Shown: one piece after another, positions 6,748 to 24,587 of the stretch
Numbering within the stretch: position 1 is the first letter of the stretch
Layout: each line of letters opens with the position of its first letter
The notes under the pieces: model-generated
Told to the model about the DNA's origin: nothing
Database searches by the model: none
Seen by the model: only the letters and a program-made list of their open reading frames with translations
Made by a program: the position numbers and the translations under genes
Source: Pseudomonas asiatica
GTDB taxonomy: Bacteria; Pseudomonadota; Gammaproteobacteria; Pseudomonadales; Pseudomonadaceae
Reading direction: 5' to 3'
DNA length: 64,000 nucleotides
Assembly: GCF_009932335.1 (NCBI RefSeq)
Contig: NZ_BLJF01000001.1
Coordinates: 1,736,001-1,800,000 of the forward strand

Positions 6748-6861
6748 ACCGACAGAGGATGGTGGCCGCATCCTGATTGATAAAGGTCAAACGGGGGCTT
6801 GCCTGCCAGCGCAATATCGAGGCGTCTCCCAGGGAGGCATTACTCATTAGAGGAGGTCGCC

Positions 6862-7416: not shown

Positions 7417-7542
7417 GCGACCCGGCCGCGTTCAGGAGCATGGACGCTCCCTTTTCGTGTTACAGCGCAACGGTGCTCCAACCAACTGCCCCAGGTGACC
7501 TTCGCAAGCCGTCTACTTGTGGCACTGGACGCCACACCCAGA

Positions 7543-7556
7543 CGCCTGAACAGGCG
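7543..7556. terminator. Weak hairpin between hsp20 and K+ channel genes
   Basis: A 5-bp GC-rich stem (CGCCT/AGGCG, loop GAAC) followed by CTATTT lies between two convergent genes. It could terminate hsp20, but the T-tract is short. Confidence 0.35.
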
Positions 7557-7982: not shown

Positions 7983-8009
7983 GGTCGGTACTCGGACTGG
8001 ATCGGAGTG

Positions 8010-8240
8010 TCATTTGGCCGCATCGACCAGATTATAGGTGGCAGGCTCCTTGGCCACCGGCAGCAGCGCCGGGAATTCTTCCGGGGTGATGGTTTCCCTG
8101 GCCAACAACAGGCGTGCCCCAGTGTCCAGGTCGGCGCGTCGTTGCTCGAGCAAGGTCCGGGCACGGGCGTAAGCGTCTTTCAGCAGGCCTCGAATACCCA
8201 GGTCGATTTCGCGCGCGGTCTGCTCTGTACAGGTAGTCCC
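8010..8240 (-). pseudogene. Remnant of the FtsH C-terminal protease domain
   Basis: In this frame about 77 residues read as the end of an FtsH-type M41 protease: CTEQTAREIDLGIRGLL, then AYARARTLLEQRRADLD and ARETITPEEFPALL, which match the helical C-terminus of FtsH (E. coli has ETARIIDQEV...RARQLLTDN...ETID). The AAA+ ATPase and the HExxH zinc site are absent. Upstream of position 8240 the frame is nonsense, because a membrane-protein gene is encoded there in another frame. It looks like a deletion that removed most of an ftsH-like gene and joined its tail to the neighbour. Confidence 0.7.
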
Positions 8241-8494
8241 CAATGCGCGCTGGCCCTGGCTATCAACTCTTGCCGCGCTTTGCGGTATTTCATGCTGGCG
8301 AACAAAGTGGCGAATACGCCTACGAAGAAAATGTACCAGCCGATCGGGCCGAAGAACAGTTCCAACGCCTTGCCCGGGTCGCCGAGCGTTTTCACCTCGA
8401 TGCCGTTGGGCTGCAGGATTTCCGCGCCGACGATCCAGATCGCCAGGTTGATGACGATAGCGACGAATACCGCAAACAGCAGGTCGTTGCGCAT
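8180..8494 (-). CDS. Small membrane protein with a tail read out of frame from the FtsH remnant
   Basis: 104 residues from the ATG at 8494 (MRNDLLFAVFVAIVINLAIW). Two hydrophobic segments at about 5-24 and 48-66 surround a short loop (GAEILQPNG...LGDPG). The first ~86 residues look like a genuine membrane protein of unknown family. The last ~18 come from reading the FtsH fragment in the wrong frame, starting at the deletion point near 8240. The protein may be a truncated version of a longer original. Confidence is moderate that it is still translated. Confidence 0.5.
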   Translation of the reverse strand: MRNDLLFAVFVAIVINLAIWIVGAEILQPNGIEVKTLGDPGKALELFFGPIGWYIFFVGVFATLFASMKYRKARQELIARASAHWGLPVQSRPRAKSTWVFEAC

Positions 8495-8663
8495 GATGCC
8501 TCTGGTGCTTGCGGGCACGGTTATATCCCACTTTTGGAACTATCGTGCTGTTTCAAGCAATCGATTTTGTCATTTTACGATCCCTCTCCAAGCACCATTG
8601 AACTGCATAAATCAAAGGTTCCAGGGCGCGTCGGGATTTCTCGCAAAAAGCGATGATGGCACG

Positions 8664-8695
8664 TTGACTCTCCCCTTAGGGGGAGACTTTAGACT
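8664..8695 (+). promoter_or_regulatory. MerR-type promoter of the ketosynthase cluster
   Basis: A -35 TTGACT and a -10-like TTAGAC or TAGACT are 19-20 bp apart, the overlong spacing typical of MerR-activated promoters. The spacer holds a strong dyad, TCTCCCC/GGGGAGA around TTAG. The same arrangement, with about 27 of 32 identical bases, occurs on the minus strand at 24588-24619. It lies 90 bp before the ACP gene. The rest of the gap 8495-8784 shows no other feature. Confidence 0.75.
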
Positions 8696-8784
8696 CCCGG
8701 CCCTCGATATATCTGGCCTGAAAACAGCATTTTTTGGCCCGATGAATTTATTCATTCAATGCGGCTTTTGTAGGGAAACAATCA

Positions 8785-9354
8785 ATGAACAATCCCTTGG
8801 AATTGGACAGCGTTATCAGCAGTACACAGGAGATTCTTGCGCAGTTGCTGGTGTTGGACCGGGCCGACGTGGCAGAGCACAGCAGTATCGTTGACGACCT
8901 CGGCGCCGACTCGCTGGATATCGTCGACCTGAGCTTCCAGCTGGGCCGTCAGTACGGTTGCACCTTGCCGAAAACCAGCGTGCTGGATCACGCGGTAGCG
9001 GTGTTCGGCGACGCCACCCGGTTTGTCGAAAAAGGCCGAATCACGCAGGACGGCGTGGCCTTGCTGGAACAGAGCCTCAGCGCTTATGCGCCGGGCCAGT
9101 TGCACGCGGGCATGCAGCCGGGCGAAGTCTTCTCGGCCACCACCGTGCGTAACTGGGCGCAGCAATGCCATAACGTTTTCAACTACCTCCCCGAGACCTG
9201 CCCTGAGTGTGGGGCGGTGCATGCCCAACTCAATGAACGCAAACAAGTGGTGTGTGGCGGTTGCAGTGCTCGTCTGACCCCTCTGGACGGTGACTCGATC
9301 TCGCGTCTGTTGGTTGAGCAGTACGCGGCCAACCAGTTGAAGGCTTCGGTGTAG
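8785..9354 (+). CDS. Acyl carrier protein with C-terminal zinc-ribbon extension
   Basis: 189 residues, about twice the size of a plain ACP. Residues 1-85 form the ACP domain with the phosphopantetheine attachment motif DDLGADSLDIVDL (Ser43). The C-terminal part carries CPEC (139-142) and CGGC (157-160), a likely zinc ribbon, which is unusual on a carrier protein. As first gene of the cluster it should hold the growing acyl chain for the ketosynthases that follow. The start has a GGGA ribosome site. No phosphopantetheinyl transferase gene is present locally, so a housekeeping enzyme must activate it. Confidence 0.88.
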   Translation: MNNPLELDSVISSTQEILAQLLVLDRADVAEHSSIVDDLGADSLDIVDLSFQLGRQYGCTLPKTSVLDHAVAVFGDATRFVEKGRITQDGVALLEQSLSAYAPGQLHAGMQPGEVFSATTVRNWAQQCHNVFNYLPETCPECGAVHAQLNERKQVVCGGCSARLTPLDGDSISRLLVEQYAANQLKASV

Positions 9355-9365
9355 GGGTTGCCTTG

Positions 9366-10640
9366 ATGCAGGCCCGAGAGGTTCTGGTCACCGGCTATGG
9401 CCTGGTGGCTCCCACGGCACTGGATGCAGCCTCGCTGTTCACGACGATCAGCGAAAACCGTTCCTGCATTCGCCAGCACCCGGCGTTCGTCGACCTGGGG
9501 TTTGCGAACCCGGCGGCCGGATTTATCGATGAGCAACAATGGCAGGTGATCGCTGCGGCCTTTCCGGGCGATCTGCAGACCACCTCCCGCCAGGAATGGC
9601 TGGCGCATTACGTGGCCCGTCAGGCGTTGGCCCATGCCGGGTTGGTCGACGGCGCATTTGCCCGAGTCGCGAGCGGTATTTTCGTCGGGGCCAATAAATA
9701 CTGCATGAGCGGTGATTTGCGGGACGCCAGCCGTTACATGGACGATCAGGGGCGGGTCGATCTTGACCAGTACCTGGATAACCACACCCTCAGCGGTGGG
9801 GCGTTCGCCCGGCGGGTTGATCAGCAAACCCGCCATCTCGCCGAATGGCTGGGTGTACGTGACCATATCTCCACACATTCCGATGCCTGTGCCGCTGGCA
9901 CCATGGCCATCGGCAGCGCCTATCGAGCGATCGCCCGTGGCGAGATCGACCTGGCATTGTGTGGCGCGGTGGAGTTGATGGCCCATGAATTGTCTTACTA
10001 CAGCTTTGATGGGCTGGGCGCACTCTGCCAGCGAGTGGACTTTTCCCCACAAGAACAGAGCCGACCGTTCATGCCAGACCGCTGCGGTTTTGTGCTGAGT
10101 GAGGGGGCGGCGCTGTTGGTGCTGGAATCCCGCGAGCATGCCGAGCGTCGTCAGGCCCGCTCGCTGGGCCGGGTGCTGGGTTACGCGAATCTGTGCGAGG
10201 CAGAGAAAATCACTTCCAGCAGCCGCGATGGCAGCAAGTACGCCGCCTGCATGACCGCGGCACTGGCCGATGCCGAACTGCCCAGTGCGGCTGTGGACCA
10301 TGTGAATGTTCACGGTACGTCGACACAGGCCAATGACCGTTGCGAGGCCCTGGGCCTGGCGCAGGTGTTCGGCGAAACCCTGGAGCAGATGACGTTCACC
10401 GCCAACAAATCTGCCGTTGGGCACTCGTTGGCCGGCAGTGGTGCCATTGAGGCGGTGCTGTCGTTGATGAGCATTCAGTCGGGCGTGGCCTTGCCGACCC
10501 TCAATTTTCAGCCGGAAAAATCCGAATTTCCGGAGTTGAAATTCCTTTGCGAACCGTTGCAGCAACCGATCAATGTCGTGCTCTCAAACTCCTTCGGGTT
10601 TGGTGGCGTGAACAGTTCGTTGGTGCTGGGCAGGGCATGA
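9366..10640 (+). CDS. Beta-ketoacyl-ACP synthase, full catalytic triad (KS1)
   Basis: 424 residues from the ATG at 9366; a TTG one codon earlier is less likely. It is a FabF/KS-II fold condensing enzyme. The active-site cysteine is in SDACAAGT (about 175), with histidines in VNVHGTSTQAND (about 316) and NKSAVGHSLAGSG (about 353). It should carry out decarboxylative Claisen condensation of malonyl-ACP with an acyl primer. The gene starts 11 bp after the ACP gene and is followed 1 bp later by a degenerate ketosynthase, so a KS/chain-length-factor pair is plausible. The protein diverges from housekeeping FabF near its start. Confidence 0.9.
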   Translation: MQAREVLVTGYGLVAPTALDAASLFTTISENRSCIRQHPAFVDLGFANPAAGFIDEQQWQVIAAAFPGDLQTTSRQEWLAHYVARQALAHAGLVDGAFARVASGIFVGANKYCMSGDLRDASRYMDDQGRVDLDQYLDNHTLSGGAFARRVDQQTRHLAEWLGVRDHISTHSDACAAGTMAIGSAYRAIARGEIDLALCGAVELMAHELSYYSFDGLGALCQRVDFSPQEQSRPFMPDRCGFVLSEGAALLVLESREHAERRQARSLGRVLGYANLCEAEKITSSSRDGSKYAACMTAALADAELPSAAVDHVNVHGTSTQANDRCEALGLAQVFGETLEQMTFTANKSAVGHSLAGSGAIEAVLSLMSIQSGVALPTLNFQPEKSEFPELKFLCEPLQQPINVVLSNSFGFGGVNSSLVLGRA

Positions 10641-10641
10641 C

Positions 10642-11724
10642 ATGACCAGATCCAATTCAACTGCTGTTTATATCACTGCAGCGTCGGTACTCAACGCCGC
10701 CGGTACTGAATGTGCGCCTCGTGACAGTCAACCTCAGGCCGCGCAACCGCTGGATTTCGACCCGGCACGCCTGGCCCGTTGCGTCGCAGCGCCCGCCTTG
10801 CCGGCTGGTGTGTATGACCGCAAATTGTCCCGCAGCCTCGAGCCTCAGGGCGCGCGCCTGCTGTATTGCGCCGGCCGCCTCGCCGAGGCCTTGCGTGAGC
10901 TGGAACTGCCCGATGAGCGGATCGCATTGACCGCTGCCATTCCGGAAGTGGATGGCCCCAGCTCGTGCTGGGATGCCGTGCAGGCCATTGGCGCACAACC
11001 GGCGGATCTGTTGGCGCAATTCTTTGCCCACACACCGCCGCTGCATGCGCTGATGATGCTCAACAGCAGCGTTATGGCCCACGCGGCTGAGGCCTTGCAT
11101 TGCAAGGGCCCCATGGGCGGTTTTTGCTCCCAGGGCAATGCAGGACTGGATGCTTTGATGGAGGCCGCCGCCCATCTGAGCGAAGGCCGTGCCGATGCTG
11201 CCGTCGTCGTCAGTAGCAGCCCGAACATCACCCCGGCGTTGTACCTGCGTGACGCTACACACCCACCTGTGAACCCCGGCCCGTGGGTTTTCGGCGAAGG
11301 TGCTGCGGCACTGTTGCTGACGACCAAGCCGGGTCGTGGTGCTCAATCTGCGTTGCGCATTGCCGGGTTTGCCCGTGGTTACAGCGCGCAACCCGAGCGT
11401 GGGCTGGCGGTTGGTCGCGACGTCATCGAGCGTGCTTTGAGCAACGAAAAACTATGCCTCAGCGATGTCGGGCAGGTCGTCGCCGATGCACAGGACCCGC
11501 AGATTGCCGCATTGTTCACCCTATCGGGGCACACCCTCGAACACTCCAAGGCGTTGGTAGGTGACTTGGGCGCCAGCGCCTTGCTCAGCGAAATCGCTGT
11601 GACCTGGGCACTGGATTGCAGCCGTTACACGCTGTTGCTCGAACATAGCCGAGGTGGGCATTGGGGCGCGGTGCTGCTGGCCAGAACGTCGTCGGACACA
11701 GAGACAATGGAGAGTTACCCATGA
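10642..11724 (+). CDS. Degenerate ketosynthase, chain-length-factor-like
   Basis: 360 residues, shorter than a typical ketosynthase (about 410). The nucleophile region aligns as GGFCSQGNAGLDAL, with a cysteine kept near 162. Both catalytic histidines are gone: the VHGTST motif is replaced by VADAQDP, and the GH of NKS-x2-GH is replaced by VGDLGAS. It therefore cannot condense like KS1 and resembles the KS-beta/chain-length-factor partners of type II PKS and aryl-polyene systems. It starts 1 bp after KS1 and overlaps the next KS gene by 4 bp (ATGA). Confidence 0.8.
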   Translation: MTRSNSTAVYITAASVLNAAGTECAPRDSQPQAAQPLDFDPARLARCVAAPALPAGVYDRKLSRSLEPQGARLLYCAGRLAEALRELELPDERIALTAAIPEVDGPSSCWDAVQAIGAQPADLLAQFFAHTPPLHALMMLNSSVMAHAAEALHCKGPMGGFCSQGNAGLDALMEAAAHLSEGRADAAVVVSSSPNITPALYLRDATHPPVNPGPWVFGEGAAALLLTTKPGRGAQSALRIAGFARGYSAQPERGLAVGRDVIERALSNEKLCLSDVGQVVADAQDPQIAALFTLSGHTLEHSKALVGDLGASALLSEIAVTWALDCSRYTLLLEHSRGGHWGAVLLARTSSDTETMESYP

Positions 11725-13019
11725 GCCCCAGACGGATCGTGATCACGGGCATGGGCGCCGTCACCGGCTTCGGTTTCGAGTGGCAGTCCATGTGGCAAAG
11801 AATGTTGGCCGGCGAGCATTGCATTCGGCCATGGCAACCGGAAGGCGTCGAGGCGGGTGCGTTCCCTGTGCGTTACGCAGCGCCCGTGGATATGGGCTTG
11901 ATGCCGGCACACTTGAAAGACCATCCGGCCTGGGGGTTGTCGCTGGAAAAACGCACCCGCTTTGGTTGGGTCGCGGCCACCCAAGCCATTTCCGACGGTG
12001 GCCTGAGCCCCGAACAGTTGCGTGGCGCGGCGGTATTGTCAGCGTCCGGCGCACCTGCTCATCGTTTGCAGGACATGCTGCTCAGCCTGGCGGATAACCC
12101 GGCGCAGGCACCGTCCTGGGCTCAGTTGATGGCGCGACAGGCGCAGGTCGATCCTGACAGTTCACTGTGTCAGAGCAACGACCGCCTTGCGCGGGTGATT
12201 GCCGATGGCATCGGCAGTGAAGGCCCGGTGATCAATATCAGCAGCGCTTGCGCGGGAGCATCCCAGGCCATCGGCAATGCATTCCAGATGATCCGTCGCG
12301 GCGAGGTCGAGCTGGCCATTGCCGGGGGCGCCGATTCGGTGCTGAGCCTGGACACCATGACCGCGCTGTATCTGCTCGGCGCCGCCAGCAGCGAGCAGCG
12401 TTGGGGCACCGAACTGTGTCGGCCGTTCGACCGCCATCGCAGTGGCTTGATTGCGGGTGAGGGCGGTGGTTTTGTCGTGCTCGAAACCCTCGAACGGGCG
12501 CTCGCCCGAGGGGCAACGCCGTACGCCGAAGTGCTGGGTTTCGGCAGCAGCCTGGATGCCTACAAAATCACCGCACCCGACCCGCAGGGCCGGGGAGCGG
12601 TGCTGGCGATGCAGGCGGCCCTGACAGATGCCGGGCTGGAGCCGCAACAGGTCGATCTGATCAATGCCCACGGTACGTCGACACCCCTCAACGATGCCGC
12701 CGAAACCCTGGCGATCAAGACCCTGTTCGCCGAGCGCGAACATTATCGGCGGTTGCTGGTGACGGCCAACAAATCCCAGTTCGGCCACCTGATTGCGGCC
12801 GCCGGAGCACCAGAGTTCATGCTCACGGCCCTGGCCTGCCGGGATGATCGGGTCACGCCGACCCTGAACCTGCATGATGCCGATGAACAATGCGACCTCG
12901 ACTACTGCGCCCATCAAGCGGTCAAGCGCAAGGTCGACGTTGCCCTGAGCAACTCCTTCGGTTTCGGCGGCCTCAACACTTCACTGGCGCTGGGCAAGTA
13001 CCGGGAGGCGCCGCGATGA
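11721..13019 (+). CDS. Beta-ketoacyl-ACP synthase, full catalytic triad (KS3)
   Basis: 432 residues from the ATG at 11721, which overlaps the preceding stop (ATGA). The longer in-frame start at 11661 lies inside the previous gene and is rejected. The FabF-type core has Cys177 in SSACAGAS, His317 in INAHGTSTPLND and His356 in NKSQFGHLIAAAG. The protein ends with the family signature SNSFGFGGLN. Together with the frameshifted partner downstream it mirrors the KS1/degenerate-KS pair, suggesting two heterodimeric condensing enzymes in the pathway. Confidence 0.9.
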   Translation: MSPRRIVITGMGAVTGFGFEWQSMWQRMLAGEHCIRPWQPEGVEAGAFPVRYAAPVDMGLMPAHLKDHPAWGLSLEKRTRFGWVAATQAISDGGLSPEQLRGAAVLSASGAPAHRLQDMLLSLADNPAQAPSWAQLMARQAQVDPDSSLCQSNDRLARVIADGIGSEGPVINISSACAGASQAIGNAFQMIRRGEVELAIAGGADSVLSLDTMTALYLLGAASSEQRWGTELCRPFDRHRSGLIAGEGGGFVVLETLERALARGATPYAEVLGFGSSLDAYKITAPDPQGRGAVLAMQAALTDAGLEPQQVDLINAHGTSTPLNDAAETLAIKTLFAEREHYRRLLVTANKSQFGHLIAAAGAPEFMLTALACRDDRVTPTLNLHDADEQCDLDYCAHQAVKRKVDVALSNSFGFGGLNTSLALGKYREAPR

Positions 13020-14126
13020 AACAGGCGGTCGCGATTGCCGGTGCGGGCTGCGTGTTGCCCAGCGGCTGGGGTGTCGAGTCTTTCTGGGCGGCTGCGACCG
13101 AAGGGCGCAGTGCAATTACGGCGCTGAACGCCCGAAGGTTCAGCAGCGAAGATCTGGGGCGTCAGCGCGGTACGTCAGGCGTTGGCAGAAGCAGGCCTGG
13201 CCGATGAGCAGCCGGATGTCCGTTTCGGTTTGTATTGCTGTCAGGGCGGCTACACCCACCCGTCTCTGGAATCCTATGCCGAGTTGTTGCTCGGCTGTCG
13301 GCAGGACGGCGTCGCCGACATGGCGGCGTTCGCCAAACGGATCCTGCAAGACCGTGCCCAGGATCCTTTTCTGGTGCTCAAAGGCTTGAGCAACTGCTTG
13401 CTGGGTGTCACCAGCCTGGCGCTGAAACTGGTGGGTGAGTGCAACGCCTATATGCAAGGTGTCGCCGGCAACCTGGCAGCCTTGCGTGAGGCTACGGCCG
13501 CTTTGCAGGATGGCCGAATCGACGCGGCAATCGTTGTCGGTGCGGGCAGCGAACTGGACGCCCTGGCGCTGTCCGGGTTGGTCCAGGCGGGGGTCATCAG
13601 CGCCAACGGCTCGAACACTCTGCTGCCGTTTGACCTTCGGGGCACCGGCGGCATTGCCGGGGAGGGCGCGGCAGCATTGGTGCTGCGCCGGCGCGAAGAC
13701 CTGCCGGCCGGCCCTCAGGCGTGCCTCGCCGACATGACGGCCCATGCCACCCTCGGTCGCTTGAGCCTGCCCGACAGCCCAACCGATCTATTGGTGTGCA
13801 GCGGCACCGGCGATGCGCACAAAGACCGCGTGTTGTGCCAGACGCTGGCCCTTGCGCGCGCCTCGCACATCACCAGCGGGTTGGCGATAAACGGCATTCT
13901 CAGCGCAGCGCCGAGCCTGGTGGATCTGATGCTTGCGCGTTGCGCATTGCAGGCCCAAAGCGTGCCGCCGATTGCCGGTTTGCAGCAGCCAGTGGCAAAC
14001 CTGCCGTTTATTCAGGGCGCGCCCCACGCCGCGAGCCTTGAGCATTGCCTGGTGCTGAACCGCGACGACAACGGATTCAGCGCCGCCTATCAAGTGCTCT
14101 ACAGCGCAAAGGTCACTCAAGACTGA
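13016..14126 (+). pseudogene. Degenerate ketosynthase interrupted by an internal deletion/frameshift
   Basis: The gene begins with ATGA overlap to KS3 and reads MKQAVAIAGAGCVLPSGWGV up to FSSEDL, near 13155. The frame then becomes nonsense and stops at 13207. The rest of the protein resumes in another frame (AVRQALAEAGL...) and runs to 14126. Compared with KS3, about 30-40 residues are missing at the junction, so this is a real deletion with frameshift and not a single-base error. A TTG start at 13182 could still give a 314-residue product. The catalytic Cys and both His are not conserved (CNAYMQG, CSGTGDAH, LAINGIL), so the intact ancestor was also a chain-length-factor-like protein. Confidence 0.7.
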
Positions 14127-14160
14127 CGCTGACTACCGCCTATTTTTTACTTTCAGGGAT

Positions 14161-17040
14161 ATGACAGTCATGGATTATCGCGATTTCGTTCGGCCCAAAT
14201 TCGTCGGCCTGCTCCAGGCACTGGGCCTGGAGTGTGAGTTTCAGCGCGCCCTCGGTAGCCAGTTGTTCTACCGCAACCCCAAGGGCGACATGGTCACGGT
14301 CACCGACTTTCTCGGCGGTTACGGTGCGGCACTGTTCGGCCACAACGACCCACAGTTTGTCGATCAGCTCTGTGCGCTGCTGCGCAGCGACGTGCCGTTC
14401 AACGCACAAATGTCGATCCGCGGTGCGGCCGGGCAATTGGGGCGAGAGCTCAGTGACGCCTTCAATCGCGAACTGAAGAACACCGAACGTTACATTTCGA
14501 CATTCTCCAACAGTGGGGCGGAGGCGGTGGAAATCGCCGTCAAGCACGCGGAGTTCCGTCGCCAGAAGAGCCTGCAAAAGCAGTTCGACGACATCGATTT
14601 CACCCTGGCCAGCCTGACCGCCAGCGAACGCGCTTATCGCGAGCTGGATGTGGCCGACCTCGACCTGCCTGCAGGTGTCCTGCCAGCCACTCTGAACAGC
14701 GTGACCTTGCGTCAGGTGGTTGAAGCCGTTCGCCAACACAACCTGGCGCAGTTGCACATCGAACCGGTATTCATCGCCCTGCGCGGCAGCTTCCACGGCA
14801 AATTGGTCAATACCGTGCAACTGACCTATGGCCGTCAGTACCGCGCGCCGTTTGCCCGTTTTGGTCTGAACGTCGAGTTCATCGACCCCCAGCAGCCCCA
14901 TCAGTTGCAGGAATTGCCGGCCCGGCACACGCACCATTGGCTGAGCCTGCAATGGGACGGCGAACACCTGAACGTGCTGAAACTGCCGTTCAGCGCGATT
15001 ACCGCCGTGTTGATGGAGCCGATTCAGGGCGAAGGCGGTATCAACGAGTTCGCGGCCGAGTTCTACCTGGGGCTGCGCAAGCTGTGTAACGAGCAACAGT
15101 GCCCGCTGGTGATCGATGAAGTGCAGTCAGGTTTTGGTCGCGCCGGGACGTTTCTTGCCAGCAGCCAGTTCAACCTGCAAGGCGACTATTACTGCCTGTC
15201 CAAGGCCCTCGGCGGCGGCTTGATGAAAATCGCCGCGACGGTGATCCGCAGCAGCCACTACGAAGGCGAGTTCAGCTACATCCATAGCTCGACCTTCGCC
15301 GAGGACGATCCGTCCTGCCATATCGCGCTGTCGGCATTGCGCCGGTTGTTCGCCAATGACGACGCGATGCTCAAAGACATACGCACCAAGGGCGCCTACC
15401 TCAAAGCCTCGCTCAATGAACTGAAGATGGCCTATCCGGATGTGATCGCCGATGTGCGCGGGCGCGGCTTGCTGGTGGGTTTGGAATTGCACGACCTGAG
15501 TGTCAGCAGCTCGCTGGTACAGGCGTCGGCCCAGTACAACGATGCCTTGGGTTACTTGATCGCCGGCTACCTGTTGCAATTCGAAGCGTTGCGGGTAGCA
15601 CCGTCGGGCAGCAACTCCAACGTGATTCGCCTGGAGCCTCCAGCCTGTATCACCCTGGGCGAAATCGACGGGCTGATCGGTGCCTTGCAACGGGTCTGTG
15701 ACATGCTGCGCCGTGGCGATGCGTTGCCGTTGGCGGCGGGTATCTGCGCGGACTCGATTCCCGCTGTGCCAGCCCGTCAGGACGATTTTCGGATGGCCGA
15801 GCCCGTTGAAAACATCGATGCCAAGGTCGAAGTCGTCGCTCGGGTAGCGTTCATCAACCACCTGATCGATGCCGATATCCTCGGTGACGTCGATCCCTCG
15901 CTGGCAGCCCTGAGCCCGGAACAGAAACGCACGTTCATCAACCGCACCAAGCCTGAACGCCGCGCTGCGCCAGTCGGCCCGGTGATCATTCGGTCGCGCC
16001 TCGGCATGGCGGTGGAGTTCACGTTGTACCCGCTGTGCATGGATTCGGATGCCATGGCCGAGTACATCCTCAGCGGTGACCTGGACAGCATTCGCGAAGA
16101 AGTCGGCAGGCGTGTCACCGATGCCCGCGCCGACGGCTGCAGCATCGCCGGTCTCGGGATGTACACCTCGATCGTCACCAACAATTGTCAGGCGCTGAAG
16201 ATTGCCGACATGGCGCTGACGTCCGGCAATGCCCTGACCATCGGCATGGGGCTCGAAGCCATCGAGCAAGGCTGTGTTCAGCAAGGCCTGGCACTGCGCG
16301 AGCAAACCGCTGCCGTTGTTGGTGCCGCCGGTAACGTTGCCTCGACCTATGCCTCGGTGCTGTCCGCCACCGTCGATCACCTGATTCTGATTGGCAGCGG
16401 TCGTGACGGCTCGGTTCGGCGCCTGGAGAAAACTGCCCAACTGATTTACGCCGACGCGGCCCGTTCGATCCTCAAGGGCACAGCCGAAAACGACCGGTTG
16501 GCGCAGCGACTGCTGAGCCTTGATGGTTTTTGTGACTTGTTGCGCTCACATGGACAAAAAGCCGACCTCGGTTTGCACATCGCCCGTCTGGTGGATGAGC
16601 GCCTTGGCGCGAACGCTTTCATCACGGTCACCAACGATCTCGACGCCCTCAAGGGCGCACGGGTTGTCCTGTGCGCGGCCAATGCGCCTCAGCCATTCCT
16701 CGGCGCCGAACATTTCGCCGAGCGCAGCGTGATTTGCGATATCGCCGTGCCGCTGAACGTTCATCAAGACATGCCGAGCCAACGCGAGGACGTGCTCTAC
16801 ATGCACGGCGGCATCGTCCAGACGCCGTTCGACGACGGCCTGGCGCCCAACGTGCGGGCCTACCTGAAAAAAGGTCAGCTGTATGCGTGCATGGCCGAGT
16901 CGGTGTTGATGGGCTTGTCTGGCATGAGCCAGCACGGCTCCTACGGCGATATCAGCCGTGAGCAAGTTCAGCAGGTCCGCGCACTGGCCGCGACCCACGG
17001 CTTCACCCTCGCGCAATTCAAAACTCAAAACTCGCTTTAA
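14161..17040 (+). CDS. Class III aminotransferase fused to a long-chain acyl-ACP reductase-like domain
   Basis: 959 residues (an ATG at 14170 is an alternative start with better ribosome-site spacing). Residues ~1-515 are a fold-type I class III aminotransferase: SGAEAVEIAVKHA, VIDEVQSGFGRAGT (Asp319) and the PLP lysine in CLSKALGGG (Lys348). Residues ~555-959 resemble the cyanobacterial acyl-ACP reductase AAR: LGMYTSIVTNN, TSGNALTIG, the dinucleotide loop VVGAAGNVAS (721 region), MHGGIVQTPFD and the catalytic-cysteine block YACMAES (Cys910, aligning with Cys294 of S. elongatus AAR). Predicted reaction: ACP-bound acyl to aldehyde, then transamination to an amine within one protein. Substrate and product are inferred. 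Confidence 0.85.
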   Translation: MTVMDYRDFVRPKFVGLLQALGLECEFQRALGSQLFYRNPKGDMVTVTDFLGGYGAALFGHNDPQFVDQLCALLRSDVPFNAQMSIRGAAGQLGRELSDAFNRELKNTERYISTFSNSGAEAVEIAVKHAEFRRQKSLQKQFDDIDFTLASLTASERAYRELDVADLDLPAGVLPATLNSVTLRQVVEAVRQHNLAQLHIEPVFIALRGSFHGKLVNTVQLTYGRQYRAPFARFGLNVEFIDPQQPHQLQELPARHTHHWLSLQWDGEHLNVLKLPFSAITAVLMEPIQGEGGINEFAAEFYLGLRKLCNEQQCPLVIDEVQSGFGRAGTFLASSQFNLQGDYYCLSKALGGGLMKIAATVIRSSHYEGEFSYIHSSTFAEDDPSCHIALSALRRLFANDDAMLKDIRTKGAYLKASLNELKMAYPDVIADVRGRGLLVGLELHDLSVSSSLVQASAQYNDALGYLIAGYLLQFEALRVAPSGSNSNVIRLEPPACITLGEIDGLIGALQRVCDMLRRGDALPLAAGICADSIPAVPARQDDFRMAEPVENIDAKVEVVARVAFINHLIDADILGDVDPSLAALSPEQKRTFINRTKPERRAAPVGPVIIRSRLGMAVEFTLYPLCMDSDAMAEYILSGDLDSIREEVGRRVTDARADGCSIAGLGMYTSIVTNNCQALKIADMALTSGNALTIGMGLEAIEQGCVQQGLALREQTAAVVGAAGNVASTYASVLSATVDHLILIGSGRDGSVRRLEKTAQLIYADAARSILKGTAENDRLAQRLLSLDGFCDLLRSHGQKADLGLHIARLVDERLGANAFITVTNDLDALKGARVVLCAANAPQPFLGAEHFAERSVICDIAVPLNVHQDMPSQREDVLYMHGGIVQTPFDDGLAPNVRAYLKKGQLYACMAESVLMGLSGMSQHGSYGDISREQVQQVRALAATHGFTLAQFKTQNSL

Positions 17041-17049
17041 GGAGCGGTC

Positions 17050-17787
17050 ATGACTCAGAAAATAGCTGTCGTGACCGGCGGCAGTCGCGGCATTGGCAAG
17101 TCCGTCGTGCTGGCCCTGGCCGGCGCGGGTTATCAGGTTGCCTTCAGTTATGTCCGTGACGAGGCGTCAGCTGCTGCCTTGCAGGCACAGGTCGAAGGGC
17201 TCGGCCGGGAGTGCCTGGCTGTGCAGTGTGATGTCAAGGATGCGCAGAGCATTCAGGCGTTTTTTGAACGGGTCGAGCAGCGTTTCGAGCGTATCGACTT
17301 GTTGGTCAACAACGCCGGTATTACCCGTGACGGTTTGCTCGCCACGCAGTCGTTGAGCGACATCACCGAGGTCATCCAGACCAACCTGATCGGCACGTTG
17401 TTGTGCTGTCAGCAGGTGCTGCCCTGCATGATGCGCCAACGCAGCGGGTGCATCGTCAACCTCAGTTCGGTAGCCGCGCAAAAGCCCGGCAAGGGCCAGA
17501 GCAACTACGCCGCGGCCAAAGGCGGTGTAGAAGCATTGACGCGCGCACTGGCGGTGGAGTTGGCGCCGCGCAACATCCGGGTCAACGCGGTGGCGCCCGG
17601 CATCGTCAGCACCGACATGAGCGAAGCCCTGGTCGGCGCCCATGAGCAGGAAATCCAGTCGCGGCTGTTGATCAAACGGTTCGCCCGGCCTGAAGAAATT
17701 GCCGACGCGGTACTGTATCTGGCCGAGCGCGGCCTGTACGTCACGGGCGAAGTCTTGCCCGTCAACGGCGGATTGAAAATGCTATGA
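17050..17787 (+). CDS. FabG-like 3-oxoacyl-ACP reductase (SDR)
   Basis: 245-residue classical short-chain dehydrogenase. It has TGGSRGIGK for NADP(H) binding, LVNNAGITRDG, the catalytic Ser in NLSSVAAQ, YAAAK (Tyr/Lys), and the FabG-type C-terminus VTGEVLPVNGGLKM. It should reduce the beta-keto group made by the ketosynthases of the cluster. It starts 9 bp after the aminotransferase-reductase gene behind AAGGAG, and its end overlaps the next SDR by 4 bp. Confidence 0.9.
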   Translation: MTQKIAVVTGGSRGIGKSVVLALAGAGYQVAFSYVRDEASAAALQAQVEGLGRECLAVQCDVKDAQSIQAFFERVEQRFERIDLLVNNAGITRDGLLATQSLSDITEVIQTNLIGTLLCCQQVLPCMMRQRSGCIVNLSSVAAQKPGKGQSNYAAAKGGVEALTRALAVELAPRNIRVNAVAPGIVSTDMSEALVGAHEQEIQSRLLIKRFARPEEIADAVLYLAERGLYVTGEVLPVNGGLKML

Positions 17788-18548
17788 GCCAGGCACGCAC
17801 GATTGTGATTACCGGCGCGGCCAATGGTATTGGCCGCGCCGTCGCGGAAAGTTTTGCAACCCAGGCCGAGCACCTTTTGATCTTGCTTGATCGGGATCTG
17901 GCAACCTTGCAGCGGTGGGTCACCGAGGGCGAATTTGCCGCTCGCATCGAAACCCATCAAGCGGACATCGCCGATCTGGCCAGCCTGCAACTTCTGTTCA
18001 AGGGCCTGGCCAACCGGGTCGGCTTTGTCGATGTGCTGGTCAACAGCGCCGGTGTCTGCGACGAGAACGAGCCCGAAGACCTGGACAACTGGCACAAGGT
18101 GATTTCGATCAACCTCAACGGCACTTTTTACGTCACCTCGTTGTGCCTGCCACTGATGGCGGATGGTGGGCGGATCGTCAACATGTCGTCGATCCTCGGC
18201 CGAGCGGGCAAGGTCCGCAACACCGCTTACTGCGCCTCCAAGCACGGCATCATCGGCATGACCAAGGCCTTGGCGCTGGACCTGGCGCCACGGCGAATCA
18301 CCGTCAATGCCATCCTGCCCGCCTGGATCGATACCCCGATGCTGCAAGGCGAATTGGCGGCTCAGGCGCGCATCGCCGGAATCACCCATGAGCAAATCCT
18401 GCGCAATGCCAAGAAGAAGTTGCCCCTGCGGCGCTTCATTCAGGGCGACGAAGTGGCGGCCATGGTCCGTTATCTGGCGAGCCCGCAGGCGAGTGGTGTC
18501 ACAGCGCAAAGCCTGATGATCGACGGCGGTGCCGGGTTGGGAATGTAG
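17784..18548 (+). CDS. Short-chain dehydrogenase/reductase
   Basis: 254 residues, ATGA-overlapping the preceding SDR gene. The motifs are TGAANGIGR for the cofactor, LVNSAGVCDENE (a serine in place of the second Asn of NNAG), NMSSILGRAG (Ser) and YCASKHG (Tyr/Lys). The acidic residue after strand 2 (LLDRDLATL) favours NAD(H). It may reduce or oxidise another carbonyl/hydroxyl of the cluster product, or act on the aldehyde released by the acyl-ACP reductase domain. The exact step cannot be assigned. Confidence 0.87.
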   Translation: MSQARTIVITGAANGIGRAVAESFATQAEHLLILLDRDLATLQRWVTEGEFAARIETHQADIADLASLQLLFKGLANRVGFVDVLVNSAGVCDENEPEDLDNWHKVISINLNGTFYVTSLCLPLMADGGRIVNMSSILGRAGKVRNTAYCASKHGIIGMTKALALDLAPRRITVNAILPAWIDTPMLQGELAAQARIAGITHEQILRNAKKKLPLRRFIQGDEVAAMVRYLASPQASGVTAQSLMIDGGAGLGM

Positions 18549-18550
18549 CC

Positions 18551-19834
18551 ATGGCTCGACTGGGATTGAACCGCGGCCTTTTGGCCGCGCTGGTCAGCCT
18601 CGGCTCGCCGGTGGCGATCGCCGAGTGGTTGCCGGAGCATCATGAAGCGGAGATCGGCGTAGCCACGGCCGTGCGTCTGCACGGTGACGACCAGGTCACG
18701 CAAAAGGCCGTGTACCTCAAGTTCAGCCTGGAGGATGCCTGGGACAGCGGCTACTACAAGGCCAAGGGCCGAGCCCGTTATGACTTCCGTTACGACGGCA
18801 ACAATCCCTACAGTGCGCAAGCCCGGGACGATTACCGGGCGACCGCCGATTGGCGGCACCTTTACTGGGGGCTCTACGTTGGCGACGGCGAGCTGACGGT
18901 GGGCTGGCAGCAGGTGGTGTGGGGGCGTGCAGATGAATTACGAGTGCTCGACCAGATCAATCCGCTGGACTATCGCGAGGGTGTGATCGGTCTGTTGGAA
19001 GACAGCCGCATCGCGGTGCCGATGATTCGCCTGGTGCAGCCGGTCGCCGAGTGGGAGCTCGAAGCGCTGGTGATCACTGATTTCGTGAAAAACCAGGCGC
19101 CGGCCGTCGGCAGCGAGTTCGATGCACCGATCTTTGCCACACCCGATCCGCAGATGTTTGTGGTCGATTCGCGGCCCGGTTATGACGGTCACAGTGGCTT
19201 CGGTTATGGCGCCAGTGCCAACGGCCGGGTCGGCACGGTGGATGTCAGCTTCGTTGCCCTCAACGCCCGCCAGCAGGACCCGGTTTACGCCGTCGAAGGC
19301 CAGACCGAAGAGGGCCTGATTCGCCTCGAACGGCAATTCCCGCGCTATTCCATGGGCGGCGCCAGTGTGGCCATCGATGCCGGCCACAGCATCGTGGTAC
19401 GCAGTGAAGTCGCTTACTTCGACAATTGGCGCGTCACCAATCCTTACCGCGCTTACGGCAGCGACCAGACGGCGATGACCAAGTCGCTGCTGGGCGTCGA
19501 TTACCTGTTGCGGGACTGGCTGATCTCGACGCAGTGGCAACATCAGCGGCTGCTCGACTGGCAGCCCGGCATGGTCCAGGACAAACGCGACGACCTGTTC
19601 ACCGTGTCTGCCGAGGGCTCGCAGTTCCAGGATCGCCTCAAGACTCGTCTGGTTTTCGGCATGTCGCCGCCAGCGCAGGACGATAGCTTCGTTCAGGGGA
19701 TCTTCACCTACAAACCGGTGGACTGGCTCAAGTTGGGGCTCGAAGTCGATGTGTTCTTCGGCAAGCCCGACCGCCAGTTCGGTGCTTACGCCAACCGCGA
19801 TCAGGTGCGCTTGTCCGCGGGTTATCTGTTCTGA
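18551..19834 (+). CDS. DUF1302-like outer-membrane beta-barrel protein
   Basis: 427 residues with a signal peptide (cleavage after about SPVAIA, residue 24). Many amphipathic beta strands follow, and the terminal strand VRLSAGYLF ends in phenylalanine as outer-membrane proteins do. The pattern QVVWGRADELRVLDQINPLDYRE is characteristic of DUF1302 proteins. DUF1302, a LolA-like periplasmic protein and an MMPL/RND pump, in this order, form a recurring export set. It begins 3 bp after the SDR stop, so it is translated with the biosynthetic genes. Confidence 0.85.
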   Translation: MARLGLNRGLLAALVSLGSPVAIAEWLPEHHEAEIGVATAVRLHGDDQVTQKAVYLKFSLEDAWDSGYYKAKGRARYDFRYDGNNPYSAQARDDYRATADWRHLYWGLYVGDGELTVGWQQVVWGRADELRVLDQINPLDYREGVIGLLEDSRIAVPMIRLVQPVAEWELEALVITDFVKNQAPAVGSEFDAPIFATPDPQMFVVDSRPGYDGHSGFGYGASANGRVGTVDVSFVALNARQQDPVYAVEGQTEEGLIRLERQFPRYSMGGASVAIDAGHSIVVRSEVAYFDNWRVTNPYRAYGSDQTAMTKSLLGVDYLLRDWLISTQWQHQRLLDWQPGMVQDKRDDLFTVSAEGSQFQDRLKTRLVFGMSPPAQDDSFVQGIFTYKPVDWLKLGLEVDVFFGKPDRQFGAYANRDQVRLSAGYLF

Positions 19835-19835
19835 C

Positions 19836-19853
19836 CACACCGGTGCCGGTGTG
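19836..19853. other. Intercistronic hairpin between DUF1302-like and LolA-like genes
   Basis: CACACCGG/CCGGTGTG is a perfect inverted repeat with a 2-base centre, placed in the 51-bp gap. No T-run follows, so it is more likely an mRNA-processing or stabilising hairpin than a terminator. Confidence 0.4.
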
Positions 19854-19885
19854 CGAACCACTCAAACAATGAAAAGGAAATCGCA

Positions 19886-20722
19886 ATGATGCCCATCTTC
19901 AAGACCCTGACTGTAAGCGCACTGTTGCTGAGCACCGCTGCCGCCATGGCAGCTGAAACACGCACGGCCGACGACATCATTCGCCAGGCCCGGGACCGCG
20001 ATGACGGCAAGAGCTTCATGTCCCAGGTGTCCCTGATTCTGATCGACAAGCAAGGTAACAGCCGCATCCGCGAGTTCAGCTACCTGCAAAAGGATTACCC
20101 GGACAGCGACAAATTCACCATGTATTTCTCCGCGCCGAGTGATGTGCGTGACGTCGCCTTCCACATCGAAAACCCGCGCGAGGCCCTGGGCCTCGAAGAC
20201 AGCCAATGGATGTATTTGCCGGTCAGCCGACAGACCCGAAGGATTTCCACCACCGACAAACGCGGGGCGTTCATGGGTAGCGACTACTCCTATGCCGACC
20301 TCGACAAGATTCGCGCCGAAGACTATCGCCAAACGCTGGTTGGCGAAGAGCAGTTGCAGGGCCGCGATTGCTACGTGATCGAGCGTGAGCCGGCGACGCC
20401 TGCCGTGCTGGCCAAGACCGGCTACAACAAGCTCAAGGTCTGGGTTGACAAGAAAAACTCACTGGTGCTGCGCCAGGACTTCTTCGATGTAAAAGGAGTG
20501 ATGTTCAAGCAGATGCGCACTCTGAAGACTGAAACCATCGACCAGATCGACAGCATTACCTTCAGCGAAACCGAAGACTTCATCGCCGGTACGCGCTCTC
20601 AGCTGCGCTTCAACCAGTTGCAGTACAACGTCGCGCTGGACGACCGCCTGTTCACGCAGACCGCGATCAAGCGTGGGCTGAAAGCCGGCGACTTGCCCGA
20701 ATACACCGTGTCTGCCCGCTAA
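19886..20722 (+). CDS. LolA-like outer-membrane lipoprotein-sorting domain protein
   Basis: 278 residues with a signal peptide (KTLTVSALLLSTAAAMA, cut near 22). The remainder is a single mature domain of the LolA-like/outer-membrane lipoprotein-sorting fold, recognised by MYFSAPSDVRDVAF, QWMYLPVSRQTRRI, FMGSDYSYADL and a late LKVWVDKKNSLVLRQ. Such proteins bind a lipid in the periplasm and often accompany MMPL pumps. Here it probably ferries the cluster product between the inner-membrane pump and the DUF1302-like barrel. A second ATG one codon downstream is possible. Confidence 0.85.
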   Translation: MMPIFKTLTVSALLLSTAAAMAAETRTADDIIRQARDRDDGKSFMSQVSLILIDKQGNSRIREFSYLQKDYPDSDKFTMYFSAPSDVRDVAFHIENPREALGLEDSQWMYLPVSRQTRRISTTDKRGAFMGSDYSYADLDKIRAEDYRQTLVGEEQLQGRDCYVIEREPATPAVLAKTGYNKLKVWVDKKNSLVLRQDFFDVKGVMFKQMRTLKTETIDQIDSITFSETEDFIAGTRSQLRFNQLQYNVALDDRLFTQTAIKRGLKAGDLPEYTVSAR

Positions 20723-20755
20723 GCGCCGCGCTCGATTCATCTGGAACCCTCATTC

Positions 20756-23365
20756 ATGGAAAGATACCTGAACTTCGTCGAGCGCTATGCGCGGGCAATT
20801 GTGTTCGTGCTGGTGGCGATCACCGCCTACTTCACCTACACCCTCGGCGCGCTGATGTCGGACACCAATCCGTATCTGCTCAAGGACACTCACCCGGCGC
20901 GCAAGACGATCATTGATTTGCAGCGCGAGTTCACCGGCACATATGACTCGGTCATGGTGGCGCTGAGCAACCCCGAGAGTGTCTTCAACACCACGTCGCT
21001 GAACGCGCAGTTCGAGTTGTCCCAGGCCATACGCCGGCTGATGCTGGCGAACGATGAGGACCGTGTAGAACTGCAGCGCATCGTTGGCCTCCACAGTGGC
21101 GATCCCGATGCCCAGGCCTTGCTGGTGCAGATCCTCGCCGAAGGTTTTTCGCAGAACGATTACGCTGCCGCCAAAGCGCTGCGCGACCATGGGATTGCCC
21201 GGCACTGGGACAGCCACGACCTGCAGTTCCTGAGCTTTCTTGCCGAGCGGCTCAACCCGATCCAGGAAATGGCCTCGATGGCTGACCTGGAAAACATCAG
21301 CTTGAGTGCCGATGGCGAGTTGTGGATCCACAAGACCCTGCACGCCCTGGATATGGACCCGAGCAAGGTCGAAGCGCAGATCATGGGCAACGAGCAGATG
21401 GTTGGTGGCGTCGTCTCGGCGGACAAGAAAGTCGCCATGGTCGTCGCCGAACTGGGTACCAAACAGGACGACGCTCAGGCCCAGTTGCGTGCCTATCACC
21501 AGGTCCGCGAGATCATCGCGAAGTACCAGGCCGCTCACCCGGAGTTCACCGATGAGGTATTCATCGCCGGCATGCCGATATTCATTGCGGCCCAGCAGGA
21601 GATCATCGATCACGACCTGGCGATGCTGTTCCCGATCGTGTTCCTGTTGGTGACTTCTCTGCTGGTTTTCTTCTTTCGCAAACCACTTGGCGTGGTGCTG
21701 CCGCTGTTCAATATCCTGTTCTGCACCATCTGGACCCTTGGCCTGATGGCGTTGCTGCGTGTACCGATGGACTTGCTCACCAGTGTGTTGCCGGTGTTCC
21801 TGTTCACCATCTGTTGTGCCGACGCGATCCACGTCATGGCCGAGTATTACGAACAGCTCAATTCGGGCAAGTCTTTCCGCGAAGCCAACCGAGAAACCCA
21901 GCGCCTGATGGTCACGCCCGTCGTTCTGACAACGGTCACGACTATTGCGACGTTCTTGATTTCCACCACCAACAACATTGTCAGCATCCGCAACTTTGGC
22001 GTGTTCATGTCCATCGGCCTGACGGCGGCGCTGATCATTTCGTTGCTACTGATCCCGGCGTGGATTTCGATCTGGGGCAAAGATGCCGTCCCGCGCAAAG
22101 TGCAACTCAAAGAGTCGCTGATCTCCCACTATCTGGTAGTGTTCTGTGCCTGGCTGATTCGCTGGCGCAAGCCGGTATTGCTGGTGACCCTGCCGTTGTT
22201 GGCGATGATGACGGTGTTCACGTTCAAGGTGGATATCGAAGACTCGGGTATTGCCTACTTCAAGAAGGACAGCCCGGTGCGGATGTCCGACGAGTTCATC
22301 AACCGGGCCGGAGTCGCGGGTACGTCGCCGGGCTGGATCGCTTTCGACACCAAGACTCCGCGTGGCGCGCTGACCACTGAAACCGTGCAGTTCCTGGAAC
22401 GTCTGGACCAGTTCATCAGGGCCCAGCCGAACGTGAGTTACACCTATTCGGTGGCGACCTACATCAAGCGCATGAACCTCGTGCTCAATGACATGAACCC
22501 TGCTTTCCTGCGGGTGCCGCAGGCGGTGGAGCAGGTGACGGTGGTCGATGATGACGGGAAACCGGAGACCTTCGAAGTCGATGGCAACTCGCTCATCGAA
22601 CAACACATCATGATGTTCGAGAACGGTGGCGGCACCGACTTGCAGAACGTGCTCAATGCCGATTACTCGAAGGCGGTGACGCTGTTCACCATGACCTCCT
22701 CTGTGGCGGGCGATTACCAGGCGATGCTCGATAAACTGGACGCCTGGCTGGCGATCAGCAAACCGGCCAACCTGCAAGTCACCCATGCCGGTACGCCGTA
22801 CATATGGACCGGGGTGTTGCAGGAAATCACCCAGGGTCAGGTGCTGAGCTTCTCGCTGGCGTTGCTGGCCGTGACCTTGATGATGATGTTCTGGCTCAAG
22901 TCAGTACGCCTGGGCATCCTCGGCATGCTGACGTTGCTGACCACGTCGGTGACGGTGTACGGCAGCATGTACCTGTTGGATATCGAGTTGAACATCGGTA
23001 CCACACTGGTGACGTTCCTGGTGGTGGGCGTCGTGGATTACGCCGTTCACCTGCTGTCACGGATCAAGATGCTGGTGCAGAAGGGCGCCGAGATCGACGA
23101 GGCCATCCTGGCGGCCATGCAGGGCGTCGGGCGTTCGACGGTGGTCAATGTCGTGATCTTCTCGATGGGCTTTGTCGCGCTGCTGTTCTCCGCCTACAAA
23201 CCCGTCATTGACCTGGGTGTACTGGTGATACTGGCGCTGTCATCCAGTGGCTTCATGACCATTTTGTTGGTCACGCTGATTTCGCCGTGGTTCTTTGCCT
23301 CGATTGTGCCGCAGCCAGCAGTGCAAGAGGGCGAGCAGCCGCGGGGTGAGGCTGTGCCAGGCTAA
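20756..23365 (+). CDS. MMPL/RND-superfamily lipid exporter
   Basis: 869 residues, the size of a hydrophobe-exporting MMPL-type RND pump. There is one TM segment near 12-30, a large periplasmic domain, five TM segments at about 285-440, a sixth near 470, a second periplasmic domain, and a final set of about five at 690-850. The repeat-2 motif GVVDYAVHLLSRIK matches the conserved TM4 region, with the acidic residue used for proton coupling. No membrane-fusion partner or TolC gene is present. With the LolA-like and DUF1302-like proteins it forms the export module of the operon, which ends here. Confidence 0.9.
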   Translation: MERYLNFVERYARAIVFVLVAITAYFTYTLGALMSDTNPYLLKDTHPARKTIIDLQREFTGTYDSVMVALSNPESVFNTTSLNAQFELSQAIRRLMLANDEDRVELQRIVGLHSGDPDAQALLVQILAEGFSQNDYAAAKALRDHGIARHWDSHDLQFLSFLAERLNPIQEMASMADLENISLSADGELWIHKTLHALDMDPSKVEAQIMGNEQMVGGVVSADKKVAMVVAELGTKQDDAQAQLRAYHQVREIIAKYQAAHPEFTDEVFIAGMPIFIAAQQEIIDHDLAMLFPIVFLLVTSLLVFFFRKPLGVVLPLFNILFCTIWTLGLMALLRVPMDLLTSVLPVFLFTICCADAIHVMAEYYEQLNSGKSFREANRETQRLMVTPVVLTTVTTIATFLISTTNNIVSIRNFGVFMSIGLTAALIISLLLIPAWISIWGKDAVPRKVQLKESLISHYLVVFCAWLIRWRKPVLLVTLPLLAMMTVFTFKVDIEDSGIAYFKKDSPVRMSDEFINRAGVAGTSPGWIAFDTKTPRGALTTETVQFLERLDQFIRAQPNVSYTYSVATYIKRMNLVLNDMNPAFLRVPQAVEQVTVVDDDGKPETFEVDGNSLIEQHIMMFENGGGTDLQNVLNADYSKAVTLFTMTSSVAGDYQAMLDKLDAWLAISKPANLQVTHAGTPYIWTGVLQEITQGQVLSFSLALLAVTLMMMFWLKSVRLGILGMLTLLTTSVTVYGSMYLLDIELNIGTTLVTFLVVGVVDYAVHLLSRIKMLVQKGAEIDEAILAAMQGVGRSTVVNVVIFSMGFVALLFSAYKPVIDLGVLVILALSSSGFMTILLVTLISPWFFASIVPQPAVQEGEQPRGEAVPG

Positions 23366-23434: not shown

Positions 23435-23818
23435 TCAGCGGGCTTTTTCCAGGTGTTCGAACTGGCATTGCATCTGAGCATCTTTGAGGCTCAGCTCAAA
23501 CTCGACCAAGCCGTCATGCACTTTCTGCAACGCCTGGATCTGCCCCATCAATTCCTGCTTTTTGTTATCGATGGCCTGCATGGCCAGATCCCAGGGCAGC
23601 TCCTGGCCGCGATGATCCTGCAGAATGGCCTGCATTTCCTTGAGCTTGAAACCGAGTTGTTGAGCACATTTGATGAAGGTCAGCAGCTCTACGCTTTGCT
23701 GGCTGTAGATGCGGTACTTGCCTTCGCGTTGCGGGGGGGGCAACAGGCCGATTTCTTCGTAATGTCGAATGCTTTTGACGGTGGTGCCCGACAGCTGGGC
23801 GGCTTTGCCGATGTACAT
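23435..23818 (-). CDS. MerR-family transcriptional regulator
   Basis: 127 residues from the ATG at 23818; the upstream extension in the same frame is unrelated to the family. The N-terminus MYIGKAAQLSGTTVKSIRHY is a classic MerR helix-turn-helix, followed by EEIGLLPPPQREGKYRIYS and the wing. A coiled-coil dimer helix and a C-terminal end with a single cysteine (QMQCQFEHLE) follow. No metal-binding cysteine set is visible, so it probably senses an organic or redox signal. It lies downstream of the quinone-reductase gene. The twin MerR-type promoters at 8664 and 24588 are its likely targets. Confidence 0.9.
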   Translation of the reverse strand: MYIGKAAQLSGTTVKSIRHYEEIGLLPPPQREGKYRIYSQQSVELLTFIKCAQQLGFKLKEMQAILQDHRGQELPWDLAMQAIDNKKQELMGQIQALQKVHDGLVEFELSLKDAQMQCQFEHLEKAR

Positions 23819-23850
23819 GAAAATCCCTTTTTGACGCATCAGAAGCGAAA

Positions 23851-24561: not shown

Positions 24562-24587
24562 GACGAACTCCAGATAATGAAGTGCCA

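Follow-up and report, generated by a model that had tools for sequence, protein, structure and literature searches.

The window analysed here is a 64,000-nucleotide stretch of Pseudomonas asiatica DNA (assembly GCF_009932335.1, contig NZ_BLJF01000001.1, positions 1,736,001 to 1,800,000) that carries, at 8785-23365, a run of eleven genes, all on the + strand. Sequence comparison makes it very likely that the run is a koreenceine-type (kec) cluster from a Pseudomonas that probably falls within the P. putida group, and that one of its genes, kecE, has a lesion specific to this strain. Along the operon, the genes encode an acyl carrier protein (ACP), a ketosynthase (KS), a protein resembling a chain-length factor (CLF), a second KS, a CLF that is broken, an aminotransferase–reductase fusion, two short-chain dehydrogenases/reductases (SDRs), a DUF1302 protein, a LolA-like protein, and an MMPL transporter. 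The genome measures 5.97 Mb in three contigs with 100% completeness, and this locus is its only whole-length match to the 959-residue fusion.

Genes of the operon

kecA (8785-9354) encodes the 189-residue ACP (PP-binding, E=4e-8). KecA is longer than the usual ACP, with a C-terminal extension harboring a zinc-ribbon-like motif of four cysteines. Serine 43 of the DSL motif is invariant across 17 aligned sequences, including that of the window, and the four-cysteine spacing is found in 13 of these; the stretch is missing in the other four, three of which are named Photobacterium. The AlphaFold model has a mean pLDDT of 94.8, and the C-terminal part is modelled with high confidence. In the PDB, the top matches are to ACPs across some 55-60 residues and do not reach E<=0.001, and the best 50 of 323 matches in a fold search are ACPs over the ACP part only, besides one helical design scaffold with a low TM-score. 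The predicted structure of the KecA counterpart of P. putida KT2440 has likewise been called unusual (PMC12490732).

The following genes encode the condensing enzymes. kecB (9366-10640, taken from the ATG at 9366; the open reading frame list begins at the TTG at 9363) encodes the first KS alpha, which has both the N and C ketoacyl-synt domains, a cysteine in SDACAAG, and histidines in HGTST and GHS. kecD (11721-13019) encodes the second KS alpha, also with both domains and with its cysteine in SSACAGA. Their partners are kecC (10642-11724) and kecE. KecC is read as the CLF-like partner of KecB because of its place, its missing active-site cysteine, and a Streptomyces counterpart (L013) that is matched by both kecC and kecE. 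Two KS alphas with the catalytic Cys-His-His set are accompanied by two KS betas that lack the cysteine, with kecE judged from the intact copies in the relatives G123, G005, and G185.

kecF (14161-17040) encodes a 959-residue fusion of a class III aminotransferase (Aminotran_3, E=7.2e-57) and an acyl-ACP reductase. Among solved structures, CrmG (E=3.6e-91) comes nearest to the aminotransferase half. The reductase half has no Pfam match, and the C-terminal 400 residues match the cyanobacterial acyl-ACP reductase structures 6JZQ and 6JZU (E about 1e-8) as well as the N-terminal half of PigE; the fusion had been named as such in an earlier note made from the sequence alone. Across 25 aligned sequences, the window included, Lys348 is invariant and Cys910 is present in at least 90%. 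From the family motif, Lys348 is presumably the pyridoxal phosphate lysine. Among the best 24 protein matches to the fusion, eight have an organism name; seven are from Pseudomonas and one is from an unclassified gammaproteobacterium.

kecG (17050-17787) encodes a beta-ketoacyl-ACP reductase orthologous to PpFabG4 (PP_2783), being identical to PDB 9NG1 at 235 of 244 residues, and kecH (17784-18548) encodes the second SDR reductase (adh_short_C2, E=2.5e-54). The last three genes form the presumptive export set: kecI (18551-19834) for a DUF1302 outer-membrane-type protein (E=3.8e-18), kecJ (19886-20722) for a LolA-like periplasmic protein (LolA_like, E=4e-50), and kecK (20756-23365) for an MMPL/RND-type transporter (MMPL, E=6.4e-24, with a HAE3-type profile below its cut-off). 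The eleven-gene run described in the earlier note is therefore real. Of the motifs listed there, the ACP, two full KSs, class III aminotransferase, two SDRs, DUF1302, LolA_like, and MMPL are all recovered by profile; in the second KS pair, one gene, the latter of the two, is not intact. Dehydratase, thioesterase, and acyltransferase profiles are lacking among the eleven genes, as that note had also stated (Pfam on all eleven; NCBIfam on ten, kecJ left out), and there is no enoyl reductase in the cluster.

Identity of the cluster and its proposed pathway

The gene order, the gene families, and the identity of kecG match a published cluster, and the locus is therefore not the orphan system that it had been taken for. 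The cluster of P. koreensis, described in 2019 together with its products, comprises kecA-kecK, likewise eleven genes arranged in this order, and gives rise to koreenceines A-D, which are antibiotics isolated from cultures, three of the four being tetrahydropyridines (PMC6498172). The m/z values reported for koreenceines A-C are 208.2067, 210.2224, and 226.2171, and a kecA-kecK deletion mutant lacks koreenceines A-D (PMC6498172). The same gene run in P. putida KT2440, PP_2777-PP_2787, has been linked to the koreenceine cluster of P. koreensis (PMC10829540) and is a 100% match to it in antiSMASH (PMC12490732). A preprint lists 664 members of the cluster family, nearly all in Pseudomonas, and cites MIBiG BGC0001987 (PMC11888242).

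Two KT2440 enzymes have been studied directly. PP_2782, to which the KecF of P. koreensis is reported to be 80% identical, ends at residue 959, has a linker at 527-562 and its reductase cysteine at position 910, and has a measured transaminase activity (PMC10829540). PP_2783 was solved in 2025 as 9NG1 and named PpFabG4; it is selective for medium-chain beta-ketoacyl-ACP, and PP_2777, the KT2440 carrier, showed no activity in these assays (PMC12490732). Therefore, the carrier role of KecA-type proteins is putative.

All 11 genes of the run have counterparts in P. koreensis CI12 with like predicted functions, in the same order and on one strand; the broken kecE sets the window apart. With KT2440 the window shares a near-identical kecG, the sole gene compared in this way with a characterised member, and a 959-residue fusion with Cys910, the window copy also having Lys348; the KT2440 cluster is described with four sequential ketosynthase-type genes (PMC12490732), of which the fourth is broken in the window. 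Owing to the kecE deletion, the eleven genes are not all intact. Judged by organism, the cluster goes with the P. putida-type clusters (clade B of PMC6498172).

A KecF search of 298 genomes of the genus returned 17 matches at 1e-100, including the window genome and a divergent fusion in G028; the other 15 genomes were fetched, and with G028 left out the cluster is present in 16 of 298. In each of the 15 fetched relatives, kecA-kecK keep their order and share a strand; they lie within one region in 14 and are split across contigs C68 and C505 in G035. A search of genomes for the same gene order had been proposed in the earlier note, and with such recurrence of an eleven-gene order chance is of no concern.

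The pathway considered here is the published proposal (PMC6498172) carried over by homology, such that every catalytic step in this strain is predicted. A C10 acyl starter (decanoyl, 3-hydroxydecanoyl, or trans-2-decenoyl) would be drawn from fatty acid synthesis, and the KecB-KecC and KecD-KecE pairs would add two malonyl units on KecA to give a C14 chain, a carbon count consistent with the formula of koreenceine B (PMC6498172). KecG and KecH would reduce the keto groups. The C-terminal half of KecF would then convert the C14 acyl-ACP thioester to the aldehyde, probably via Cys910, for amination by the N-terminal half, and spontaneous, non-enzymatic ring closure of the amino-ketone would yield a 2-substituted tetrahydropyridine, probably exported by KecI-KecJ-KecK. 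The enzyme logic sketched in the earlier note, a KS-built acyl-ACP reduced and aminated by one fused protein with an export set after it, agrees with this scheme. Its supply of malonyl units from housekeeping fatty acid synthesis is also consistent with the published proposal, which draws the starter units from the same source (PMC6498172).

Several points weigh against the koreenceine assignment or limit its reach. The link to P. koreensis CI12 depends on three things: PP_2783, the gene order as published, and an 80% identity of KecF and PP_2782 (PMC10829540). The clade B product may differ, koreenceine C being the one detected in strain SWI36 (PMC6498172). KecC has no Pfam or NCBIfam match, and its PDB matches are weak (best E 0.0045). 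With dehydratase and enoyl reductase genes both missing from the cluster, complete loss of the oxygen at C3 would have to occur elsewhere or by a putative activity. For the cluster of this strain, a koreenceine product is a prediction from homology.

Related systems resemble parts of the cluster. PigE (prodigiosin) and TamH (tambjamine) belong to pyrrole pathways that are not known to include two KS/CLF pairs. As predicted for KecF, both perform acyl thioester reduction followed by transamination (PMC10829540); PigE is matched by both KecF halves, yet its domain order is opposite, and TamH is cited as 28-32% identical to the fusions (PMC10829540). Membership in the PigE or tambjamine systems is rejected, as the domain order or the pathway differs. 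CrmG (caerulomycin) resembles the aminotransferase half of KecF, but is monofunctional and has no reductase domain (PMC10829540). The gamma-coniceine pathway of poison hemlock shares the tetrahydropyridine core derived from an aminated polyketide chain; it employs a plant type III polyketide synthase and is described as convergent (PMC6498172).

Aryl polyene, resorcinol, and flexirubin clusters, with which the earlier note had suggested a comparison, combine an aromatic starter with condensing enzymes and with dehydratase/thioesterase and acyltransferase genes. Profiles of Pfam (all eleven genes) and NCBIfam (all but kecJ) show no dehydratase, thioesterase, or acyltransferase in the run, the FlxB profile matching kecG and kecH below its cut-off, and all three identities are rejected.

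The apparently frame-broken kecE

kecE (13016-14126), encoding the second CLF, is interrupted, as seen from a three-frame reading and from its length. Its start at 13016 overlaps the end of kecD, 45 codons are read on, and the remainder continues from about 13140-13150 in another frame. The gene spans 1111 bp, versus 1206 bp, stop included, in the close relative G035, and alignment of the two places a 95-bp out-of-frame deletion near 13150. kecE lies in a single frame in all 15 other kec-bearing genomes; in eight of them a stop falls in the aligned stretch, always at query position 398 of 401, near the natural end, and intact forms elsewhere have 401-403 residues. A 403-residue form in a protein collection, 99% identical to the longer piece of the window, represents 289 member sequences. 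When intact kecE was searched for in the genome of the window, just the two pieces were found and no second copy.

In the frame that remains, the opening portion of the condensing-enzyme fold is missing, and therefore a working KecE is unlikely. Barring an error in the assembly, this deletion and the lack of another copy in the genome probably leave the kec copy impaired, and the lesion would block or alter the product. As read from the alignments, the deletion is either confined to this strain (or to a narrow lineage) or a fault of the assembly.

It is unlikely, though not negligibly so, that the deletion is an artefact of assembly or sequencing and that the koreenceine cluster of this strain is complete and working. 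The other ten genes are open and align at full length with G123, leaving no further decay in the operon, and both the single frame of the 15 relatives and the 289-member intact form speak for such an error. However, a clean 95-bp gap is atypical of a homopolymer error, the three-contig genome is estimated as complete, and decay is also seen in relatives, with a stop within kecC (G251) and scars of kecK (G237, G092).

If the lesion is genuine, it is improbable that KecB-KecC alone supports production, either through one extension to a shorter C12 beta-hydroxy or beta-keto amine or through both extensions to the koreenceines. Two KS/CLF pairs are present, the 2019 paper leaves modular versus iterative action open (PMC6498172), and all genes acting after the KSs are intact. 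On the other hand, a transposon in a 3-oxoacyl-ACP synthase gene of P. koreensis (kecD by locus number) abolished activity, polarity being possible (PMC6498172), and kecE is missing from none of the 15 fetched relatives. A very remote extension holds that a single KecB-KecC extension, with KecF, KecG, and the export genes intact, yields a non-cyclising C12 1-amino-3-ol or aminoketone, and that the MerR/flavodoxin-fold gene pair beside kecK is an unrecognised regulatory or self-protection part. If true, the operon would not be silenced, and so short a deletion would have switched its output from an alkaloid antibiotic to a linear, lipid-like amine.

Least credible is the product predicted in the earlier note, an amine lipid, long-chain or beta-functionalised, destined for the outer envelope: an acyl-ACP reductase–aminotransferase fusion and a LolA-like/MMPL/DUF1302 set are indeed present, but the main homologous products are cyclised, secreted alkaloid antibiotics that are lost on kecA-kecK deletion (PMC6498172), and a new envelope-lipid system is rejected on the same grounds. 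By analogy with these products, that of the cluster is likely a C14 tetrahydropyridine alkaloid rather than an envelope lipid amine. The note sensed an aminating acyl pathway correctly and missed the koreenceine identity and the broken kecE.

Flanks, loss, and relatives of the cluster

The leader 5′ of kecA (8535-8784, + strand) has no sigma-70-like site in the scan and marks where, on the left, the block shared with G123 begins. The blastn match to G123 starts at 8535; farther upstream the two sequences diverge, and nothing matches in the fetched 16-kb region. Fragments of two genes, one of the Nramp family and one for FtsH (peptidase M41), lie on the - strand at 8010-8518, adjoining an ion channel gene (7557-7982) and an Hsp20 gene (6799-7416). 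The edge at 8535, with these fragments before it, fits an insertion or deletion joint. The fragments may be remnants of a heat-resistance type island.

Promoter and terminator scans of both operon ends returned one weak - strand terminator-like site, at chance level, and the tRNA and Rfam scans found no tRNA and no Rfam RNA inside the operon. Elsewhere in the window, an Rfam match to the 5′ureB small RNA (101.6 bits; 39211-39492, - strand) lies antisense within the urease alpha gene (39059-40762); it probably reflects conserved coding sequence rather than a small RNA.

Downstream, kecK is convergent with a MerR-family regulator gene (23435-23824, - strand; MerR_1, E=4.3e-18; the open reading frame with the furthest start reaches 23965), beside which lies a gene for a flavodoxin-fold NAD(P)H oxidoreductase (23983-24588, - strand; Flavodoxin_2, E=2.5e-41). 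merR adjoins kecK, convergently, in all 15 kec-bearing relatives, and the reductase gene is beside merR in 14; in G129 its best match is on another contig. The linkage of this pair to kec is firm. Genus-wide, merR relatives occur in 114 of 298 genomes (E <= 1e-30) and the reductase in 181 (E <= 1e-60), far more often than kec, and the notion that the pair is exclusive to kec and moves with it is unsupported. Since the pair is frequent without kec, it resembles a resident locus, with kec placed next to it; in G209, merR, the reductase gene, a LysR gene, and a dehydrogenase gene are ordered as in the window, without kec. The P. putida-type clusters of clade B are reported to show no conserved location (PMC6498172). 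In the koreenceine literature, as far as it was covered and with figures excluded, the term MerR is absent from the main text of PMC6498172 and from PMC10682437 and occurs once in PMC9239112, in a reference title.

Decay of the cluster is visible in other genomes. In G251 (L114), kecC has an in-frame stop at query position 119 of 360 and the cluster is otherwise complete. The last 159 residues of KecK, used as a query, match 17 of 298 genomes: the 16 that bear kec and G237, which has a 160-residue kecK frame, 98% identical, beside merR, and no kecF match. Of six cluster-less genomes examined for their close merR, two have kecK ends beside it, G237 (about 479 bp; L143, 8615-9091) and G092 (about 71 bp; L144, near 8115-8185; contamination estimate 7%); G209, G302, G310, and G121 have no kecK remnant at that position. 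In G237, a 29-bp kecI-like stretch abuts the kecK remnant. The scars in G237 and G092 suggest repeated loss of kec. A literature search on kec gene loss gave only unrelated papers among the matches listed.

Fusions related to KecF also occur in other contexts. A scan of genome contigs gave at least 80 loci, most of those listed matching only part of the aminotransferase half, and eight (L013-L017, L019-L021) were checked for kec neighbours. In the Streptomyces genome (L013), kecA-H are collinear and kecI-K are unmatched in the fetched 22.9 kb, as reported for the Streptomyces clade (PMC6498172). The divergent G028 fusion (36%; L096, G028:C5:143000-160000, 3772-10745, - strand) lies beside an LPG_synthase_C (phosphatidylglycerol lysyltransferase-type) gene and a fatty acid desaturase gene, with no other kec match in the fetched 17 kb, and possibly belongs to a different pathway to an aminoacylated, unsaturated alkylamine. 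In Kangiella taiwanensis (L014, 8332-21584), a kecF-like fusion (29%) sits amid two AMP-ligase genes and genes for an MMPL pump, a desaturase, a LolA-like protein, and a KS III, which looks like a separate alkylamine pathway using a similar export pair. The fusion of Undibacterium flavidum (L020, 2006-13302) adjoins a gene whose match to fatty acid hydroxylase is borderline, and an MMPL-LolA_like fusion protein and a desaturase are encoded nearby.

The koreenceine system is already known, and what the analysis adds are strain-level facts, the kecE deletion and the scars of loss in relatives, together with the conserved neighbour. The deletion and the MerR/flavodoxin-fold neighbour go beyond the koreenceine literature, as far as it was covered. 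An apparently orphan operon is hereby placed in a characterised family of competition alkaloids from rhizosphere Pseudomonas, and its fixed MerR/flavodoxin-fold neighbour offers a lead on regulation or self-protection. Scoring by gene content, without a check of reading frames, would label this strain a producer; calls of kec presence can mislead, as illustrated by the broken kecE of the window, the kecC stop in one of 15 relatives, and the kecK scars in two of six examined cluster-less genomes.

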